Position numbers and translations under genes: made by a program. The notes beneath the pieces were generated by a model. The model worked only from the letters and a program-made list of their open reading frames with translations. It did not search any database and had not been told where the DNA came from. 28,037 nt of DNA from a virus, in IMG/VR virus record IMGVR_UViG_3300006919_000318, positions 1-28,037 of that record. One strand, 5' to 3'. This document shows, piece by piece, positions 1 through 18,884 of the stretch; position 1 is the first letter of the stretch, and the number at the start of each line of letters is the position of its first letter.

Positions 1-1362
1 ATCGAAAACTTCCCCTTTAACAAAGTGCTTCCGCTTCGTTGCGTAGCAAGGGATAACTGAAAAGCCATTTAATTCACTCAGCCGATCTGAAAACAAGATA
101 TCCCCTACCAATTTCCCTACCCAATATTCCGTAACTGTACGCTCAACCTTTTCGAATCCGGGGATTGTTAGTATTTCTTTTTTAATTTTAGAGTCCAGTA
201 ACCATGACGGGATTGTCCCTTCGTTCCCGTCAAGATAATACTTATCATCGGGATTAAATATAACCGTTCTTTTTTTATACTCTTTTTTTGTGACTGTCAT
301 TAGTTTGTATGTTTTATTTTCGATGTCATTGAATTTGAAATTTGAAATATTGGGAATTATTGTATTTACATGCGTTAGTAAATTTTGAGATGGCTCAAGC
401 CCTTCGATTAGGCTCAGTTTATCTTTTGGGACAATCATTTTTAAATAATCTTTTGATACCCACTCCCACTCACACACACCCTCGCAATCGGATAAATCCA
501 ATTTATTATGAGGCATGTAAGTGACTTGATCCCACTCCACCTTAGATAACATGATGTCACCTTCTGGATTTATTGATGTATTTAATTTTAATCCTAAGTT
601 TCCTCTACCACCAATCGTTTGGTCAGCATTGATTTCTTTTTGTAGCTGCGGATAGTTATTCCTAGATAGAGTATGTGTATTCAATGTATTAATGATATCC
701 ACCACACCACTATCGGATGTCTCGGTAGGACGGCATTTTGGAGATGTTGGGCGAGATCCAAATATACCTATCAGGCTATTTACCTTTGACTTGACCAGAT
801 TGAAGGATAGGGCTGGGGCACCCCTTGACTTTAACCTAGCTAAAGCCTCATCCGGCCATTGATGCTCACCGCCACGATACAACGCCTCAGCTTTTTCCGC
901 CTGATCCAAATAGAATGAGTTGTCATAGTCGTATGAATTAATTGCAACTTTTAAATACTGGGATGTTCTTGAACCCTCCTCTTCATCAAAATCATCCTTT
1001 TTAATTTTTTCTCTTTTTGAAGGATCAAGTTGTAAATAATCCATTTCAATATTATGAGTGTGGCCATTTTCAGACTCCTTTCCAATATAATATGTTTCAG
1101 GTGTCATTTGGGGTTCACCTGTCTGAGGGTTAATGAGGGGTTGCCCCGTTTTTGGGTCAATGACAAACCTAGATGGAGCGAACCATACCTCATGGTGATG
1201 GCCATTAACCTTCGATGTCATCCCAACAATCCCATGTCCTTTACGATCACCTGTTTTCAGTATTGAACTAGGCTCAACTTTTGTTCTTATATACACAATA
1301 TGCTTGTGTCCATCCTCATTCTCAACACCGTCTTTTATTTCACCACTAGTTAGCTTTAACAT
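1..1362 (-). CDS. Portal protein, P22-like (partial, cut by left edge)
   Basis: An open frame of 454 codons runs without a stop from the ATG at 1362 to the window edge, so the C-terminus is missing. A strong AAGGAGAG Shine-Dalgarno lies just upstream, and the gene starts 12 bp after the terminase stop. Residues ~135-260 (YLDQAEKAEALYRGG, QWPDEALARL, GAPALSFNLVKSKVNSLIG, then QTIGGRGNLGLKL) resemble the conserved portal core of P22-type phages: a DQW-like start, a 'PALxxN..K..V....G' segment and the following G-rich stretch. The portal is the dodecameric head channel for DNA packaging and ejection. Odd: the first ~110 residues carry three GHxH motifs (DGHKH 17-21, NGHHH 53-57, NGHTH 99-103), which I do not know from classical portals. 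The position directly after the large terminase supports the call. Confidence 0.8.
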   Translation of the reverse strand, partial: MLKLTSGEIKDGVENEDGHKHIVYIRTKVEPSSILKTGDRKGHGIVGMTSKVNGHHHEVWFAPSRFVIDPKTGQPLINPQTGEPQMTPETYYIGKESENGHTHNIEMDYLQLDPSKREKIKKDDFDEEEGSRTSQYLKVAINSYDYDNSFYLDQAEKAEALYRGGEHQWPDEALARLKSRGAPALSFNLVKSKVNSLIGIFGSRPTSPKCRPTETSDSGVVDIINTLNTHTLSRNNYPQLQKEINADQTIGGRGNLGLKLNTSINPEGDIMLSKVEWDQVTYMPHNKLDLSDCEGVCEWEWVSKDYLKMIVPKDKLSLIEGLEPSQNLLTHVNTIIPNISNFKFNDIENKTYKLMTVTKKEYKKRTVIFNPDDKYYLDGNEGTIPSWLLDSKIKKEILTIPGFEKVERTVTEYWVGKLVGDILFSDRLSELNGFSVIPCYATKRKHFVKGEVFD

Positions 1363-5376: not shown

Positions 5377-5874
5377 ATGATAAACGACAATCCAAAAATC
5401 TATGTAGGCACATACAAGAAATACAATGAAGGTAGTCTTTATGGGGCATGGGTTGACCTAACAGAATTTGAGAATAAAAAAGAATTTATAAAACACTGTA
5501 AAAAACTACATAAAGACGAAAAGGAGCCAGAGTTAATGTACCAAGACTTTGAGTGTTTTCCGGACGCTATGTATTCGGAGTGCCACATACATGATGAGTT
5601 ATGGGACTGGATGGAGCTGAACAAAGACCAAGCGGAAATTCTTGAGGCGTTCATGATTCTTTTTTGCCCGAATTTCAAAGAGGCTTTGGAGGGCTATGAA
5701 GAATGCTACATGGGTAAACACAATAGCTTTAGAGCATTTGCGAAAGAACGTTTTTTTGATTTAAACGAGATTCCTGAACACTTGGAGAGTTATATCTGTA
5801 TCGACAGGGTCGAGAGAGAATACAGAATAGACTATAGTGAACATAATGGACACGTTTTTTACAGCAATTACTAG
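5377..5874 (+). CDS. ardA: Antirestriction protein ArdA
   Basis: 165 aa, the usual ArdA length. Recognisable features are the N-terminal IYVGTYKKYNEGSLYGAWVDL (ArdA: IYVA.L..YN.G.LHG.W.D), the central acidic segment MYQDFECFPDA (family pattern E..I.DYEGFP), AFMILFCPNFKEALEGYEECYMGKHNSFRAFAKE, and a C-terminal segment ending in GHVFYSNY (family: ..G..VFV....). ArdA is a DNA mimic that inhibits type I restriction enzymes and is carried by plasmids and phages. AGAAAGGAATTTAAAAA gives a clear ribosome site. It sits at the head of a block of unknown genes, consistent with early expression for counter-defence. Confidence 0.88.
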   Translation: MINDNPKIYVGTYKKYNEGSLYGAWVDLTEFENKKEFIKHCKKLHKDEKEPELMYQDFECFPDAMYSECHIHDELWDWMELNKDQAEILEAFMILFCPNFKEALEGYEECYMGKHNSFRAFAKERFFDLNEIPEHLESYICIDRVEREYRIDYSEHNGHVFYSNY

Positions 5875-7531: not shown

Positions 7532-7846
7532 ATGGAAAATAAAAATGTAATGAAATTCCCAAAACCTAAATATGTAAAAATAGTAGTTAAAAACTATAAA
7601 GCCCCCATCAAACCAATAGAATTAGAGGTTAAATGCAGTATGGATAATTATGAATGGGACTCATGGTTAGACTTTGATTTGAATTACCGTACAGTAAGTC
7701 AGTTTATACGTCTAATGAAGTGTAATACACATACTTATGGGGACATCACTTATATTCCCGTATACAAATTTCGACATAAAACCCCTTCATGGTCAAACAT
7801 ATTCGAATTTCAAGAAAACCTTAATTCTATGGAGTCCCAACAATAA
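7532..7846 (+). CDS. Unknown early protein, 104 aa
   Basis: ATG with AAAAGAAAGGAAATAAAAA upstream. The N-terminus is basic (KFPKPKYVKIVVKNYKAPIKP), followed by an aromatic, acidic middle (CSMDNYEWDSWLDFDLNYRT). No family recognised. Short early phage protein in the ardA block. Confidence 0.62.
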   Translation: MENKNVMKFPKPKYVKIVVKNYKAPIKPIELEVKCSMDNYEWDSWLDFDLNYRTVSQFIRLMKCNTHTYGDITYIPVYKFRHKTPSWSNIFEFQENLNSMESQQ

Positions 7847-7874
7847 ACAAAGAAGCGAAAAGGAGTTTAAAAAA

Positions 7875-8291
7875 ATGAACAAGCAAGAAATAATAGATTT
7901 ATTAAAAAGCGATATTAAGAAATTCAATAAATACAAAGAAAAGAATAAAGATATTTGTTTGGATTTACGAGGGACTGATTTACGAGGTGCTGATCTGCAG
8001 GGGGCTGATTTGCGTGATATTTATTTACAGAAGGCTGATTTACGTGGTGCCGATTTACTATGTTGTGATTTGCGTGATATTTGTTTACGGAAGGCTGATT
8101 TACGTGGTGTTGATCTACGAGGGGCCAATTTACGTGGTACGGATTTGCTAGGTGCGGATTTACGGGGTGCTGATCTATGGGAGGCTGATTTACGGGGTGC
8201 TGATCTGCGGGGGTCTAATTTAAAGGGTGCCAATTTAATTGAGGCCAATTTAAAAGGGGCAAAACTTGACAAACAAGGAGAAGAAAAATGA
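7875..8291 (+). CDS. Pentapeptide-repeat protein
   Basis: 138 aa from the ATG at 7875, chosen because AAAAGGAG lies at the right distance; the longer frame from 7737 runs through the previous gene and lacks a site. After ~30 residues come about 20 A(D/N)LRG-type pentapeptides (RGTDLRGADLQGADLRD...GANLIEANLKG). These fold as a right-handed quadrilateral beta-helix, and some relatives mimic DNA and block gyrase or other DNA-binding enzymes. There is no evidence here for the target. The repetitive DNA gives long open frames on the other strand, which are shadows. It overlaps the next gene in an ATGA junction. Confidence 0.85.
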   Translation: MNKQEIIDLLKSDIKKFNKYKEKNKDICLDLRGTDLRGADLQGADLRDIYLQKADLRGADLLCCDLRDICLRKADLRGVDLRGANLRGTDLLGADLRGADLWEADLRGADLRGSNLKGANLIEANLKGAKLDKQGEEK

Positions 8292-8596: not shown

Positions 8597-9175
8597 ATGA
8601 AAATAGGTTATGCACGCGTATCAACAGAGGATCAGAATTTAGACGGACAAGTGGACGCATTACAAAAAGTGGGTTGTGATGAGATTTACAAGGAAAAGGC
8701 ATCGGGAGTGAGCGAGCGAGCGGTGCTGGAGGAAGCGATCCGTTACTTAAGAGCCGGGGATACGTTGGTGGTAACGAAGTTGGATCGATTGGGACGAAGC
8801 TTAAAAAAGTTAATCGCATTGATTGAGGAATTGAAGGATCGAGGGATTCACTTTGAGAGTATGGACGATGGCATTGATACAAGTACCAGTGTGGGGACAT
8901 TCTTTTTTCAAGTGATTGGTGCGTTTAGTGAACTTGAGAGGAATTTAATCGTTGAACGAACCAAAAAAGGGCTTGAGGCTGCAAGGCGTAGGGGGAAGTT
9001 TGGTGGCCGACCAAAAACCCATAACGAGAATAAAAAAGAAATTGCATATAGAGAAGTGATGGAAAATAAGAAGAGCATTAAAGAGATTGCTGACAGCTTG
9101 GGGATGAGTCGGATGACGATTTATCGGTACATTGAAAAGAAAAACGAAAAACCCGTCCAAAATGAGCATCGTTGA
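8597..9175 (+). CDS. Serine resolvase/invertase (Tn3-resolvase family)
   Basis: 192 aa, full length. Catalytic domain intact: YARVSTEDQ with Ser9, and KLDRLGRS with D63, R64 and R67. ELERNLIVERTKKGLEAARRRGKFGGRP forms the E-helix and hinge, and a C-terminal HTH (SIKEIADSLGMSRMTIYRYI) binds DNA. Such enzymes resolve plasmid or phage multimers or invert segments. With ParA and Rep nearby, multimer resolution of a plasmid prophage is the natural guess. The start has GAGAGG 8 nt upstream. Codon use and slightly higher GC differ from the preceding AT-rich genes, so separate acquisition is possible. The other serine-recombinase-like gene in this window (3228-3875) lacks these catalytic residues. 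Confidence 0.93.
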   Translation: MKIGYARVSTEDQNLDGQVDALQKVGCDEIYKEKASGVSERAVLEEAIRYLRAGDTLVVTKLDRLGRSLKKLIALIEELKDRGIHFESMDDGIDTSTSVGTFFFQVIGAFSELERNLIVERTKKGLEAARRRGKFGGRPKTHNENKKEIAYREVMENKKSIKEIADSLGMSRMTIYRYIEKKNEKPVQNEHR

Positions 9176-9194
9176 GAGGCTTGACGGGCGTTTT
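9152..9194 (+). terminator. Possible terminator of the resolvase gene
   Basis: CCCGTC (9152-9157) pairs with GACGGG (9183-9188), followed by CGTTTT. The loop is long (25 nt) and includes the stop codon, so this is a weak intrinsic terminator. It would also read as a hairpin for minus-strand transcripts leaving the repeat region. Confidence 0.35.
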
Positions 9195-9204
9195 CCATTA
9201 TAAT

Positions 9205-9246
9205 CTCAAAATAATTTGAGAACTGTAATCTACGGAAGTAGAAATT
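9205..9246 (-). ncRNA. Solitary Cas12a-type CRISPR repeat unit 1 (predicted small RNA)
   Basis: Minus-strand core TAATTTCTACTTCCGTAGAT (9228-9247): stem UCUAC/GUAGA with loop UUCC, the crRNA handle recognised by Cas12a (type V-A). The predicted +1 is the A at 9246. Extra pairing GTAA/TTAC flanks the handle, with a 2-nt bulge. A second hairpin CTCAAA-TTAT-TTTGAG (9205-9220) follows 8 nt after the handle, but only ATTATAAT comes next, so termination is uncertain. There is no second repeat at spacer distance. The loop differs by one base from units 2 and 3. Confidence 0.75.
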
Positions 9247-9252
9247 ACATCC

Positions 9253-9281
9253 AATTTAACATCTTAAATTGAATTAGGCAA
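9253..9281 (-). promoter_or_regulatory. Promoter of repeat unit 1
   Basis: Minus strand: -35 TTGCCT (9276-9281), 17-bp spacer, -10 TAAATT (9253-9258), then exactly 5 bp to the repeat core. Each hexamer matches consensus at 4 of 6 positions. A stronger -35 TTGACA (9304-9309) with TACTAT (9281-9286) lies upstream and would start about 25 nt earlier. Confidence 0.5.
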
Positions 9282-9306
9282 TAGTATAAAAAGTAGTATT
9301 TGCTGT

Positions 9307-9381
9307 CAATTACCCCCTTAATTGTGCTAAGGAGATAATTGTTTAAAAATTTAACAGCTATAATCTACTGAAGTAGAAATT
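9307..9381 (-). ncRNA. Solitary Cas12a-type CRISPR repeat unit 2 (predicted small RNA)
   Basis: Minus-strand core TAATTTCTACTTCAGTAGAT (9363-9382), predicted +1 at 9381 (A). Handle stem UCUAC/GUAGA, loop UUCA. It shares 29 nt (one mismatch inside) with unit 3, including the TATANCTGT after the handle. A 14-bp hairpin (arms 9307-9320 and 9328-9341, 7-nt loop) follows about 21 nt later. On the minus strand all 14 pairs form, two as G-U; on the plus strand two positions are C-A mismatches, so the minus-strand RNA is the likelier functional one. No T-run follows, so the 3' end is uncertain. Confidence 0.78.
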
Positions 9382-9387
9382 AAGTAT

Positions 9388-9416
9388 AGAATATATGTTT
9401 TTTTAAACTTGGTCAA
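9388..9416 (-). promoter_or_regulatory. Promoter of repeat unit 2
   Basis: Minus strand: -35 TTGACC (9411-9416), 17-bp spacer with an A-tract, -10 TATTCT (9388-9393), then 5 bp to the repeat core. Same geometry as units 1 and 3. Confidence 0.62.
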
Positions 9417-9469: not shown

Positions 9470-9492
9470 GTGAGTGCCTGAGAAGTACTCAC
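9470..9492 (+). other. Hairpin H1 of a tandem hairpin pair
   Basis: GTGAGT (9470-9475) pairs with ACTCAC (9487-9492); G-U and C-G can extend it on the plus strand. The loop contains GCCTGAGAA. AAAAAATTTTTT follows. It aligns with H2 (9505-9538) over 22-23 nt, with compensatory stem changes. It could be a terminator or a protein-binding RNA/DNA hairpin. Confidence 0.5.
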
Positions 9493-9504: not shown

Positions 9505-9546
9505 ATTTAAGTGGGAGCCTCAGAAATCCCACTTAAATTCTTTTGT
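9505..9546. terminator. Hairpin H2 of a tandem pair, probable bidirectional terminator
   Basis: A 12-bp perfect stem (9505-9516 with 9527-9538) and 10-nt loop GCCTCAGAAA. TTCTTTTG follows on the plus strand. On the minus strand AAAAAATTTTTT follows, so termination in either direction is possible. It separates the resolvase side from the structured RNA and partition side. Confidence 0.55.
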
Positions 9547-9645: not shown

Positions 9646-9665
9646 AAAAGCCCCCATTTGGGGGC
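9646..9665 (-). terminator. Intrinsic terminator of repeat unit 3
   Basis: Minus strand: GCCCCC-AAAT-GGGGGC (9650-9665) followed by TTTT (9646-9649). The plus strand lacks a T-run after the stem (AATCC), so it is directional. It begins 15 nt after the Cas12a handle, leaving no room for a normal spacer. Confidence 0.8.
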
Positions 9666-9699
9666 AATCCTACAGATATAATCTACTGAAGTAGAAATT
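9646..9699 (-). ncRNA. Solitary Cas12a-type CRISPR repeat unit 3, complete mini-gene (~54 nt RNA)
   Basis: Minus-strand core TAATTTCTACTTCAGTAGAT (9681-9700). Promoter TTGACG-N17-TAATAT lies 5 bp upstream and the intrinsic terminator starts 15 nt downstream. The predicted RNA begins with AAUUUCUAC, the mature 5' end of Cas12a crRNAs, and would need no processing. The 15 nt between handle and terminator (TATATCTGTAGGATT) are too short for a guide of ~20-24 nt unless the terminator stem is included. The best reading is a crRNA mimic that occupies Cas12a, like the solitary repeat units called RNA anti-CRISPRs; a one-spacer mini-array is the alternative. Confidence 0.82.
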
Positions 9700-9705
9700 A
9701 AAAAA

Positions 9706-9734
9706 ATATTACCCAATTATTATAAATCCGTCAA
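9706..9734 (-). promoter_or_regulatory. Promoter of repeat unit 3
   Basis: Minus strand: -35 TTGACG (9729-9734, 5 of 6), 17-bp spacer, -10 TAATAT (9706-9711), then TTTTT and the repeat. The best of the three promoters. Confidence 0.7.
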
Positions 9735-9800
9735 CAGATAAAAAATAACAGACCAATATCATACTATTAATGACATTTATATTAGACCATGTAGATAAAC

Positions 9801-10140
9801 GCCCCCTAACCCCACGGGTAGTGGGAAACCGGACGTAACGCCACTCACTTCTTTATAGTCCTATGTGTGAGTCCAGGCACCTCTGCGGTGGTTACCCCTG
9901 TCCTGAGGACTCGATACACGATTATCAGTATTTGCTGATCATAACTCCACGGCGTATTGCAAGCGATGGATAGTGTATCTAGGCAATAGTAACTCAGCTT
10001 ATCTTGGGATCGGTGCCATAAACCGTCCACTGAGTGCAGTTTCCTGCGCTAACCACTTTAGGCTGGTAGCTAAATCAGACCATTTTGCGCCTATTTCCTC
10101 ATTGGCTCCCATGTCTTTCATTGCTGAATTAGGGCGGGCC
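9801..10140 (+). ncRNA. Candidate large structured RNA (~340 nt), class unknown
   Basis: The stretch is clearly richer in G+C than its surroundings and has no credible gene. Its ends pair: CCCTAA (9804-9809) with TTAGGG (10129-10134), extendable by GCC/GGC. Inside are many nested helices: CCCAC/GTGGG (9811-9825), ACTCAC/GTGAGT (9843-9872), GAGTCC/GGACTC (9869-9912, alternative), TATTGC/GCAATA (9955-9988) enclosing TGGATA/TATCTA, ACTCAG/CTGAGT (9992-10035) enclosing GGATCGGT/ACCGTCC, GCAG/CTGC (10036-10047) and GCTAACCA/TGGTAGC (10048-10070). The TGGATA/TATCTA helix has a G-U pair on the plus strand, favouring that strand. A weak promoter ATGACA-N16-TAGATA precedes it. I cannot match it to RNase P, tmRNA or an intron. 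It could instead be a structured replication region. Confidence 0.55.
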
Positions 10141-10216
10141 AAGGATTGTTTAAGACATTATAATAATATCTAAAAAGTAGATGTGGTGTCAAATTTTAAT
10201 TAATATATATGTGTGT

Positions 10217-10305
10217 GTGGGTGTTGAGTGGGTGTTGGATGGGTGTTGAGTGGGTAAATTCGTGCCTAGGGAGTGGGTGTTGAGTGGGTGTTGAGTGGGT
10301 GTTGT
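10217..10305 (+). repeat. 11-bp tandem repeats GTGGGTGTTGA (putative parS/operator)
   Basis: Two clusters. Copies at 10217, 10228 and 10239 are followed by a degenerate one at 10250; after a 12-bp gap containing CCTAGG come copies at 10273, 10284 and 10295. The 11-bp period places each copy on the same DNA face. The last copy overlaps the -35 box of the parA promoter. In type Ib-like partition loci, such repeats upstream of parA are centromere and autoregulatory sites. Confidence 0.7.
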
Positions 10306-10330
10306 CAATTGTTTATCGATAGGTAATAAT
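10302..10330 (+). promoter_or_regulatory. parA promoter
   Basis: TTGTCA (10302-10307), 17-bp spacer, AATAAT (10325-10330). The -35 box overlaps the last 11-bp repeat, so a repeat-binding protein could repress the operon. The ribosome site AAAGGA is at about 10361-10366. Confidence 0.6.
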
Positions 10331-11169: not shown

Positions 11170-12461
11170 TGACTAAAAAGAAAGAAGTTATTGATTTTAT
11201 GTCTGTCATGTCCAAAAAAAACCATAAAAGCTATGATTTTTCAGATTATTTCTTCCCAAAAGGATCGAAAGATATTGATGGATTAGAAGAGTGTGATTTG
11301 AGCGTAAATGAAGATTGTTTAGCCTCAAATGAAGGTGATGAAAAAATAGGTAACAAAAGAGGTAACAAAAGGGGTAACAAAAGGGGTAACAAAAGGGGTA
11401 ACAAAATAGGTAACAAGACAAATAAAGGGGTAACAAAAGAGGTAACAAAAACGTTAAAAGAGGCAACAAAAACGTTAAAAGGGGTAACAAAAGAGGTAAC
11501 AAAAGGGGTAACAAAAACGTTAAATAGCAATTTTGATTTTACCTTTTTTGATGTGAGTGAACAACAAAAAAGTATTTTAATATTTATATTCCATGAATGC
11601 TCAAAAATAAACCCTCACAAAACAGGTAAGATCACCTTGAAAAATATGCGCTATTCAATCGGCATATCCGAAGGCTCAATCAAGCAACAATTATTAAGAC
11701 TATTTAAGACGGGGTTAATTGCCGTCAATGATAGTGAGATAGGGCGCAAGGGATGGCGTATAATTGAAATGGAAAAATGTTGCTATGATGACATCTTTTA
11801 TTTTCTAACCAAAAATAATTTTAGTAAATTAAAGGGGGAACAAAATAGGGAACAAAATAGAGAACATAGTAGTAGTGGTTATATATATAATAATACTACT
11901 ACAAAAAAGTTCTTATTTGGCGAAAATCAGGCTTTGTCCAATTCTGATACGGAGGGGTTGACAGATCTGCCCTTGGGTTGGGATGATGTCAGCCATGAAG
12001 AACTCAACAAACTTGGCATCGATTTCAAAAAAACCCACATTGCCCAGATATACCAACAGCGACAATCCAAAGAGTTTAGCCACCACCATCTTCAATCGTC
12101 CATCGACGGCTTTGTATGGGATCTCAAAAACAGACATCAGTCTATTAAGCGATTTAAGAACCCGGTTGCTTTCCTCCTAAAGATATCAATCGCGGGAAAA
12201 CCTTACATACCACACCCATCATATCAAGATAGCATAAGACGACAGCTTGTGCAGTCTAAGGCGTATTCGGATGAGCGGAAGAGAATAATGGATGATATCA
12301 TTCAGTCTAAATTCAACACATGGCTATCAGAGAGGTCCAAGGATGAACGTTTATCCATTTTATCTATGACTAGAGATGAGCTGGATAAACTAAGGCCAGA
12401 GATGATTAAATCCATATTTTTTGAGCATTACAAGCAAAAGGTTGAGCCGTACGAGTCATGA
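11169..12461 (+). CDS. Probable replication initiator with in-gene iterons
   Basis: 430 aa, ATG overlapping the parA stop. Residues ~60-117 are a low-complexity stretch (GNKR repeats, then VTK repeats) encoded by 12-bp DNA repeats. Residues ~120-215 form a winged-helix-like domain (QQKSILIFIFHEC, KITLKNMRYSIGISEGSIKQQLLRLFKTGLIAV, KGWRIIEM). The C-terminal half is helical (GWDDVSHEELNKLGI, HHHLQSSIDGFVWDLK, RFKNPVAFLLKI) and resembles C-terminal regions of plasmid and phage replication proteins. Iterons inside an initiator gene next to parA recall lambda O and many rep genes, so replication initiation is the best call. A ParB-like partner role is the main alternative. Confidence 0.65.
   Translation: MTKKKEVIDFMSVMSKKNHKSYDFSDYFFPKGSKDIDGLEECDLSVNEDCLASNEGDEKIGNKRGNKRGNKRGNKRGNKIGNKTNKGVTKEVTKTLKEATKTLKGVTKEVTKGVTKTLNSNFDFTFFDVSEQQKSILIFIFHECSKINPHKTGKITLKNMRYSIGISEGSIKQQLLRLFKTGLIAVNDSEIGRKGWRIIEMEKCCYDDIFYFLTKNNFSKLKGEQNREQNREHSSSGYIYNNTTTKKFLFGENQALSNSDTEGLTDLPLGWDDVSHEELNKLGIDFKKTHIAQIYQQRQSKEFSHHHLQSSIDGFVWDLKNRHQSIKRFKNPVAFLLKISIAGKPYIPHPSYQDSIRRQLVQSKAYSDERKRIMDDIIQSKFNTWLSERSKDERLSILSMTRDELDKLRPEMIKSIFFEHYKQKVEPYES
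11349..11518 (+). repeat. 12-bp iterons GGTAACAAAAGR inside the initiator gene (putative origin)
   Basis: GGTAAC copies begin at 11349, 11361, 11373, 11385, 11397, 11409, 11429, 11441, 11483, 11495 and 11507, plus GGCAAC at 11462. Most are 12 bp apart. AACGTTAA blocks separate some copies. The first six are read as Gly-Asn-Lys and the rest as Val-Thr-Lys, so the DNA rather than the peptide is conserved. AT-rich DNA follows (about 11568-11592), as expected for an unwinding element. Confidence 0.75.
11836..11871 (+). repeat. Second set of 12-bp repeats, GGGAACAAAATA
   Basis: Three adjacent units at 11836, 11848 and 11860 (the last is GAGAACATAGTA). They resemble the upstream iteron (GGTAACAAAAGR) and have the same 12-bp period. 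They directly abut the dyad at 11869-11902. Confidence 0.55.
11869..11902 (+). repeat. Dyad with AT-rich centre
   Basis: GTAGTAGT (11869-11876) and ACTACTAC (11895-11902) flank TTATATATATAA-rich DNA. Within the initiator gene, next to the second repeat set; possibly a melting or regulatory site. Confidence 0.45.
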
Positions 12462-18402: not shown

Positions 18403-18884
18403 TTAATATTATGAAGTTTTTACCAGTTTTGGGTAAAGCGATTCAGGGAGATGTCGGAGGTGCGCTTAGTGAGGGTATGCAAGCTATTGGGTTAAAACCT
18501 TCTGGCGATTCGGATAAAGATAAAATTAAATTCGATAAGGCTATTGAGTCGGCGACACCAGAGCAATTGAAGGCTTTAAAAAAGCTTGAATATGACTTTG
18601 AGATTCAAATGGAAAAGATGGCTTCTGATGACAGGGATTCGGCAAGAAAAAGACATCTAACAATGAAGGACTCAACTCCTGCAATCATTGGAATATCACT
18701 TGTTTTTGGATTTTTTGCGTTACTTGCAACTTTGATATTCACTGAAATCCCGATACATAACCAACAGATATTGAATATTATGTTAGGCTCGCTTGGAACT
18801 ATGACAACGGCTGTTGTTACGTATTACTTTGGTTCATCGAATGGCTCATCTAAAAAAGATGAGATGCTGAGATCAATAAAATAA
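18399..18884 (+). CDS. Holin (three-TM, GTA-type family)
   Basis: 161 aa. The N-terminal part is amphipathic (FLPVLGKAIQGDVGGALSEGMQAIGL). The middle has FEIQMEKMASDDRDSARKR, the conserved E...ASDRDSAR pattern of three-TM holins. Two clear membrane segments follow, PAIIGISLVFGFFALLATLIF and ILNIMLGSLGTMTTAVVTYYFG. It should open the inner membrane for the endolysin encoded next. The start overlaps the previous gene (ATGA) with AAGGAGAAGG upstream. Confidence 0.82.
   Translation: MINIMKFLPVLGKAIQGDVGGALSEGMQAIGLKPSGDSDKDKIKFDKAIESATPEQLKALKKLEYDFEIQMEKMASDDRDSARKRHLTMKDSTPAIIGISLVFGFFALLATLIFTEIPIHNQQILNIMLGSLGTMTTAVVTYYFGSSNGSSKKDEMLRSIK

Follow-up and report, generated by a model that had tools for sequence, protein, structure and literature searches.

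RNA inhibitors of type V-A CRISPR-Cas systems have been described in RacrVA1-3, which are V-A repeat mimics from mobile elements that inhibit Moraxella bovoculi Cas12a (PMC10651486). The search for solitary repeat units reported by Camara-Wilpert in 2023 took repeats that were not associated with other repeats, and since it was limited to such isolated repeats, clusters of them may have been skipped (PMC10651486). In AbiF systems, the RNA RCd22 bears the abiF motif and neutralises AbiF in trans by protein binding (PMC12373285). An abiF sRNA has also been reported in cyanophage S-CREM1, and the available part of that report attaches no anti-defence reading to it (PMC9964418).

Here, we analysed a virus record from IMG/VR that is 28,037 bases long (the window) and carries genes for portal, large terminase, head, tail, ParA, and endolysin. 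Judged from its sequence, the region at 9.1–9.7 kb looks like an RNA anti-defence cluster, in which three Cas12a handles and an abiF RNA lie 3.3 kb from the gene of an ArdA antirestriction protein. Similar to RacrVA1-3, the handles are V-A repeat mimics on a mobile element, have a promoter (predicted here) close upstream, would follow the same decoy logic, and are without cas genes, none being recognised among the window proteins scanned (PMC10651486). The locus differs from RacrVA1-3, as compared by description and not by sequence, in that three copies are found in 472 nt, a predicted terminator lies directly 3' of one copy, and the abiF RNA lies beside another (PMC10651486). In the literature consulted, we found no description of such a cluster, with three V-A mimics and an abiF RNA sharing a strand close to ArdA. 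The best-supported explanation is that the handles are Cas12a RNA decoys, namely a type V-A RNA anti-CRISPR (Racr), to which we assign a probability of roughly 0.72; this is a known kind of element, because V-A repeat mimics have already been tested and inhibit Cas12a (PMC10651486).

Arrangement of the three Cas12a handles

The handle cluster is located between the resolvase gene and the ParA and replication-like genes, with all three handles on one strand (Table 1). Comparison of the three copies revealed that 16 of the 16 non-loop handle positions are canonical in each, while the flanks have diverged. Copies 2 and 3 have in common TTGAC, a 17-nt spacer, and a distance of 6 nt from the −10 to the handle, and this common spacing places the expected start at the handle's first base, which in copy 3 is the first A of the handle. 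The promoter of copy 1 is a better match, but its 5' leader folds into a hairpin. Each handle unit stands alone, yet the three occur close together. A CRISPR mini-array was considered and rejected, with irregular handle intervals of 135 and 318 nt and no Cas gene recognised among the proteins scanned.

Table 1. Coordinates of the RNA elements and of the antirestriction gene in the window
Feature	Position	Strand	Remarks
ArdA antirestriction protein	5377..5874	+	PF07275, E 5.8e-21
abiF RNA (RF03085)	9151..9188	-	Rfam 41.5 bits, cut-off 37
Copy 1 Cas12a handle	9228..9246	-	loop TCC; predicted hairpin either side
Copy 1 predicted promoter	9281..9309	-	TTGACA-N17-TACTAT
Copy 2 Cas12a handle	9363..9381	-	loop TCA; then long hairpin (about 9358-9302)
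Copy 2 predicted promoter	9388..9416	-	TTGACC-N17-TATTCT
Copy 3 intrinsic terminator-like stem-loop + TTTT	9646..9665	-	GCCCCC-AAAT-GGGGGC-TTTT; stem-loop GCCCCCAAATGGGGGC at 9665-9650, TTTT at 9649-9646
Copy 3 15-nt segment, guide position	9666..9680	-	TATATCTGTAGGATT
Copy 3 Cas12a (type V-A) handle	9681..9699	-	AATTTCTACTTCAGTAGAT, 19 nt, loop TCA
Copy 3 predicted sigma-70-type promoter	9706..9734	-	TTGACG-N17-TAATAT; -35 TTGACG at 9734-9729, -10 TAATAT at 9711-9706, 17 nt between; handle spacing recurs at copy 2

A chance origin of the cluster was rejected by the handle and stem statistics. Three exact handles were found, where 3.4e-5 were expected in the window under a first-order Markov model; a search with up to 3 mismatches returned the same three only, with a shuffle mean of 0.56. 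Terminator-grade stems, for which we required a T-run and 6 or more uninterrupted base pairs, 5 or more of them G-C, occur at 3 distinct sites in the window, compared with a shuffle mean of 0.03. The promoter of copy 3 has 9 of 12 matches, an ordinary −10/−35 score, and promoter-like sites number 12 observed against 5.1 expected; by itself, this promoter is weak evidence. The position between the resolvase gene and the ParA and replication-like genes would suit structural control RNAs of the replication/partition region, in which the likeness to the Cas12a handle is accidental. This explanation is highly improbable, as the predicted transcription runs away from ParA and is not antisense to it, and exact handle identity by accident has an expectation of about 3e-5.

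As to the host, a search of the genome collection for prophage relatives returned none by TerL, the named phages related to this virus are distant ones only, and the ParA and Rep matches were uninformative. In the close relative L124, no handles were found, but the contig stops short of this region, and the absence was dropped as evidence for that reason.

Anatomy and predicted fold of copy 3

The sequence-only reading had described copy 3 as a complete mini-gene, and the order of promoter, handle, 15 nt, stem, and TTTT is indeed present on the minus strand at 9734-9646. Its length of 54 nt is borne out when counted from the handle through TTTT, and the T-run of the terminator, which consists of only four T, is found on the minus strand only, as had been proposed. 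The −10 is separated from the handle by TTTTTT at 9705-9700; the gap of 5 bp given previously is correct when TAATTTC is taken as the beginning of the handle and becomes 6 nt when AATTTC is.

Analysis of the predicted ensemble of the 54-nt RNA gave the terminator stem a probability of 1.0 and the handle stem one of only about 0.36. The low value of the latter arises from a competing duplex between UUCUAC of the handle and GUAGGA in the 15-nt segment, most of whose pairs are at about 0.55–0.59. The expected fold, an unchanged handle plus a terminator stem, is thus certain for the terminator, while the handle is unchanged in the minimum-energy structure only. The handle core stem of copies 1 and 2 is predicted at about 0.96–1.0, and for copy 3, Cas12a may capture the minority fold. 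The proposal of a minimal decoy RNA, whose structured 3' end may protect it from exonucleases, is partly supported: a handle-only RNA with a predicted promoter and terminator fits the published V-A RNA anti-CRISPRs (PMC10651486). It is weakened by the ensemble, in which the competing pairing that disrupts the handle stem is preferred, and by the start of the 15-nt segment, which is common to copy 2.

Recurrence of the design in other viral contigs

Viral contigs were scanned for the handle and for handle-N20-50-TTTTTT, which gave at least 121 distinct instances, the window's included. The handle followed by N20-50 and TTTTTT is present in 24 viral contigs, and a control in which the handle was reversed and the tail kept gave 0. 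Among the matches listed, a terminator occurs within 70 nt of 16/60 intergenic handles (2–3 in control stretches) and of 6/61 in-ORF handles (0–1 in controls), a rate that is slightly inflated because a few loci came from the tail-selected scan. Promoter-like sequences are also enriched among the intergenic matches listed: a Bacteroidota-type TAnnTTTG ends directly at the handle in 11/55 (0.7% of control positions), and a sigma-70-like promoter abuts it in 5/55 (about 1%). A hairpin occupies the guide position in 16 of the 22 terminator-bearing cases and in 7 of 53 handles in ORFs among the matches listed. The enrichments of terminator, promoter, and hairpin indicate a design that recurs, in which the RNA begins with the handle and is closed by hairpin and terminator; copy 3 is a minimal form of it that lacks the extra hairpin. 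A looser TTTG promoter test was unconvincing (13/55 vs 9/55).

Because the same design recurs among unrelated viral contigs, it is quite unlikely that the handles were inserted by chance or persist as functionless remnants of a captured CRISPR fragment. Conservation was not found at the locus, where no relative covering the handles was found, and the altered loop of copy 1 would be in keeping with decay; against this, the 16 non-loop positions have been kept in three copies despite the diverged flanks, and predicted promoters and a terminator are appended to them.

The exact TTCA-loop handle gave 14 single matches in the genome collection, none of them within an array, which counts against the decoy reading. 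The family of copies 2 and 3 was found in one viral contig only (L066), where it belongs to an ordinary array, namely a type V-A array at 351-754 (-) that has seven repeats and regular spacers. Composite RNAs were observed in L034, L047, L076, L102, and L278, and also in L121 and L281, where a type I-C-like repeat end, a small hairpin, the Cas12a handle, a hairpin, and a terminator follow one another in one predicted unit. The I-C-like repeat end reads GTGGATTGAAAC, with GTGGATTTAAAC or GTGGATTCAAAC in L121 and L281.

The 15-nt segment in the guide position

A segment of 15 nt is below the length for efficient Cas12a cleavage, and it is enough for target binding. CreR-type Cas-regulating guides are short regulatory crRNAs that can silence the host cas promoter; copy 3 resembles them in having a repeat and then a short guide-like segment, and differs from them in that no target was found within the window. 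By analogy, the segment could be a truncated guide with which Cas12a binds a target without cutting, for example to silence a host cas promoter. The length sufficient for binding agrees with such a role, as does the start TATAnCTGT at the seed position of both copies 2 and 3 (TATAGCTGTTAAATT in copy 2 and TATATCTGTAGGATT in copy 3), a likeness that shows the segment not to be wholly unconstrained. We nonetheless consider a truncated guide unlikely, since a search of the window for sites next to a TTTN PAM that differ from the segment at no more than 3 positions gave nothing, and a hairpin closes the guide position in many viral handles. Duplication of the promoter-handle unit also explains the common seed letters; as the copies look like duplicates, these letters alone are no argument for a guide.

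The abiF RNA beside handle 1

The abiF RNA starts 39 nt downstream of handle 1 on the same strand and was the only match in a permissive Rfam search of the region. Its stem and U-run resemble a terminator too. Folded as one 135-nt RNA, positions 9274-9140 are predicted to form a leader hairpin, the handle, a hairpin, and the abiF stem, and handle 1 and the abiF RNA probably belong to one transcript. The RNA is like the RCd22 antitoxin (RF03085) in its Rfam match above the cut-off and in its motif (PMC12373285). RCd22 has two motifs and adjoins its toxin gene, whereas one motif and no toxin gene were found here (PMC12373285). Abi_2 (PF07751, the AbiF toxin) was absent from the window and from two relatives; as a detection control, the same method finds PF07751 in 2 of 9 bacterial genomes. 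The relative G002 carries an abiF RNA at 18631-18668 (+), and no Abi_2 gene was found in it.

A scan for the abiF core returned at least 120 viral stretches, with the abiF stem present, by a stem test, in most of the matches listed. Rfam confirmed abiF at all 16 loci sent, 15 from the scan and one in Aeromonas phage PZL-Ah8. Abi_2 was absent in 50/50 stem-bearing viral records tested among the matches listed, an absence that is a lower-grade fact than a presence because many of the records are fragments.

In viral contigs (L144-L263), solitary abiF RNAs are frequent, and they also turn up in gaps without annotation in the genomes of named phages, PZL-Ah8 among them. In L149, L161, L168, L193, L206, and L213, they lie beside or near phage tRNA gene clusters. 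Within the window, the resolvase gene (+) runs at its 3' end into the abiF RNA (-), the two sharing 9151-9175, and the last codons of the gene are antisense to the RNA.

Proposed mechanism of the putative RNA decoys

As a Cas12a decoy, copy 3 would most likely give rise to a short RNA of about 54 nt, extending from the handle's first base to the intrinsic terminator. The host Cas12a would bind its handle as though it were a mature crRNA, and the RNA would offer at most 15 nt ahead of a very stable stem. We propose that, with this stretch too short for efficient target cleavage, Cas12a would be occupied unproductively. Copies 1 and 2 would act likewise through longer structured RNAs, and the abiF RNA could neutralise a host AbiF toxin.

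A broader and more tentative proposal, which we regard as possible and somewhat doubtful, is a modular cassette that combines CRISPR repeat mimics with an RNA antitoxin mimic, one pair of them probably co-transcribed, to titrate Cas12a and neutralise AbiF, with the solitary abiF RNAs as a general class of RNA anti-abortive-infection elements. If the decoy reading is right, RNA decoys would be stacked elements and not isolated curiosities, the mimics of distinct host RNAs being placed next to one another in the vicinity of an antirestriction protein, and copy 3 would be a minimal natural Cas12a decoy of about 54 nt. It would also open a route to anti-defence genes that are invisible to gene callers, which miss them because no protein is encoded.

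Other features of the region

Several further elements were observed around the cluster. Two hairpins at 9470-9492 and 9506-9539 have in common the loop motif TTCTSAGGC (minus strand), which is absent from the relatives searched, and they come after a promoter-like site at 9627-9599. The stretch 9791-10150 has a GC content of 49% (genome, 37%), is non-coding-looking, and gave no match in an Rfam search; the region's best minus-strand promoter match (10192-10163) is located at this stretch. The ORF 7737-8291 (+) contains pentapeptide-like repeats in its translation. Short tandem repeats are present before ParA at 10210-10310 (GTGGGTGTTGA) and within the replication-like gene at 11340-11535 (AAAAGGGGTAAC).
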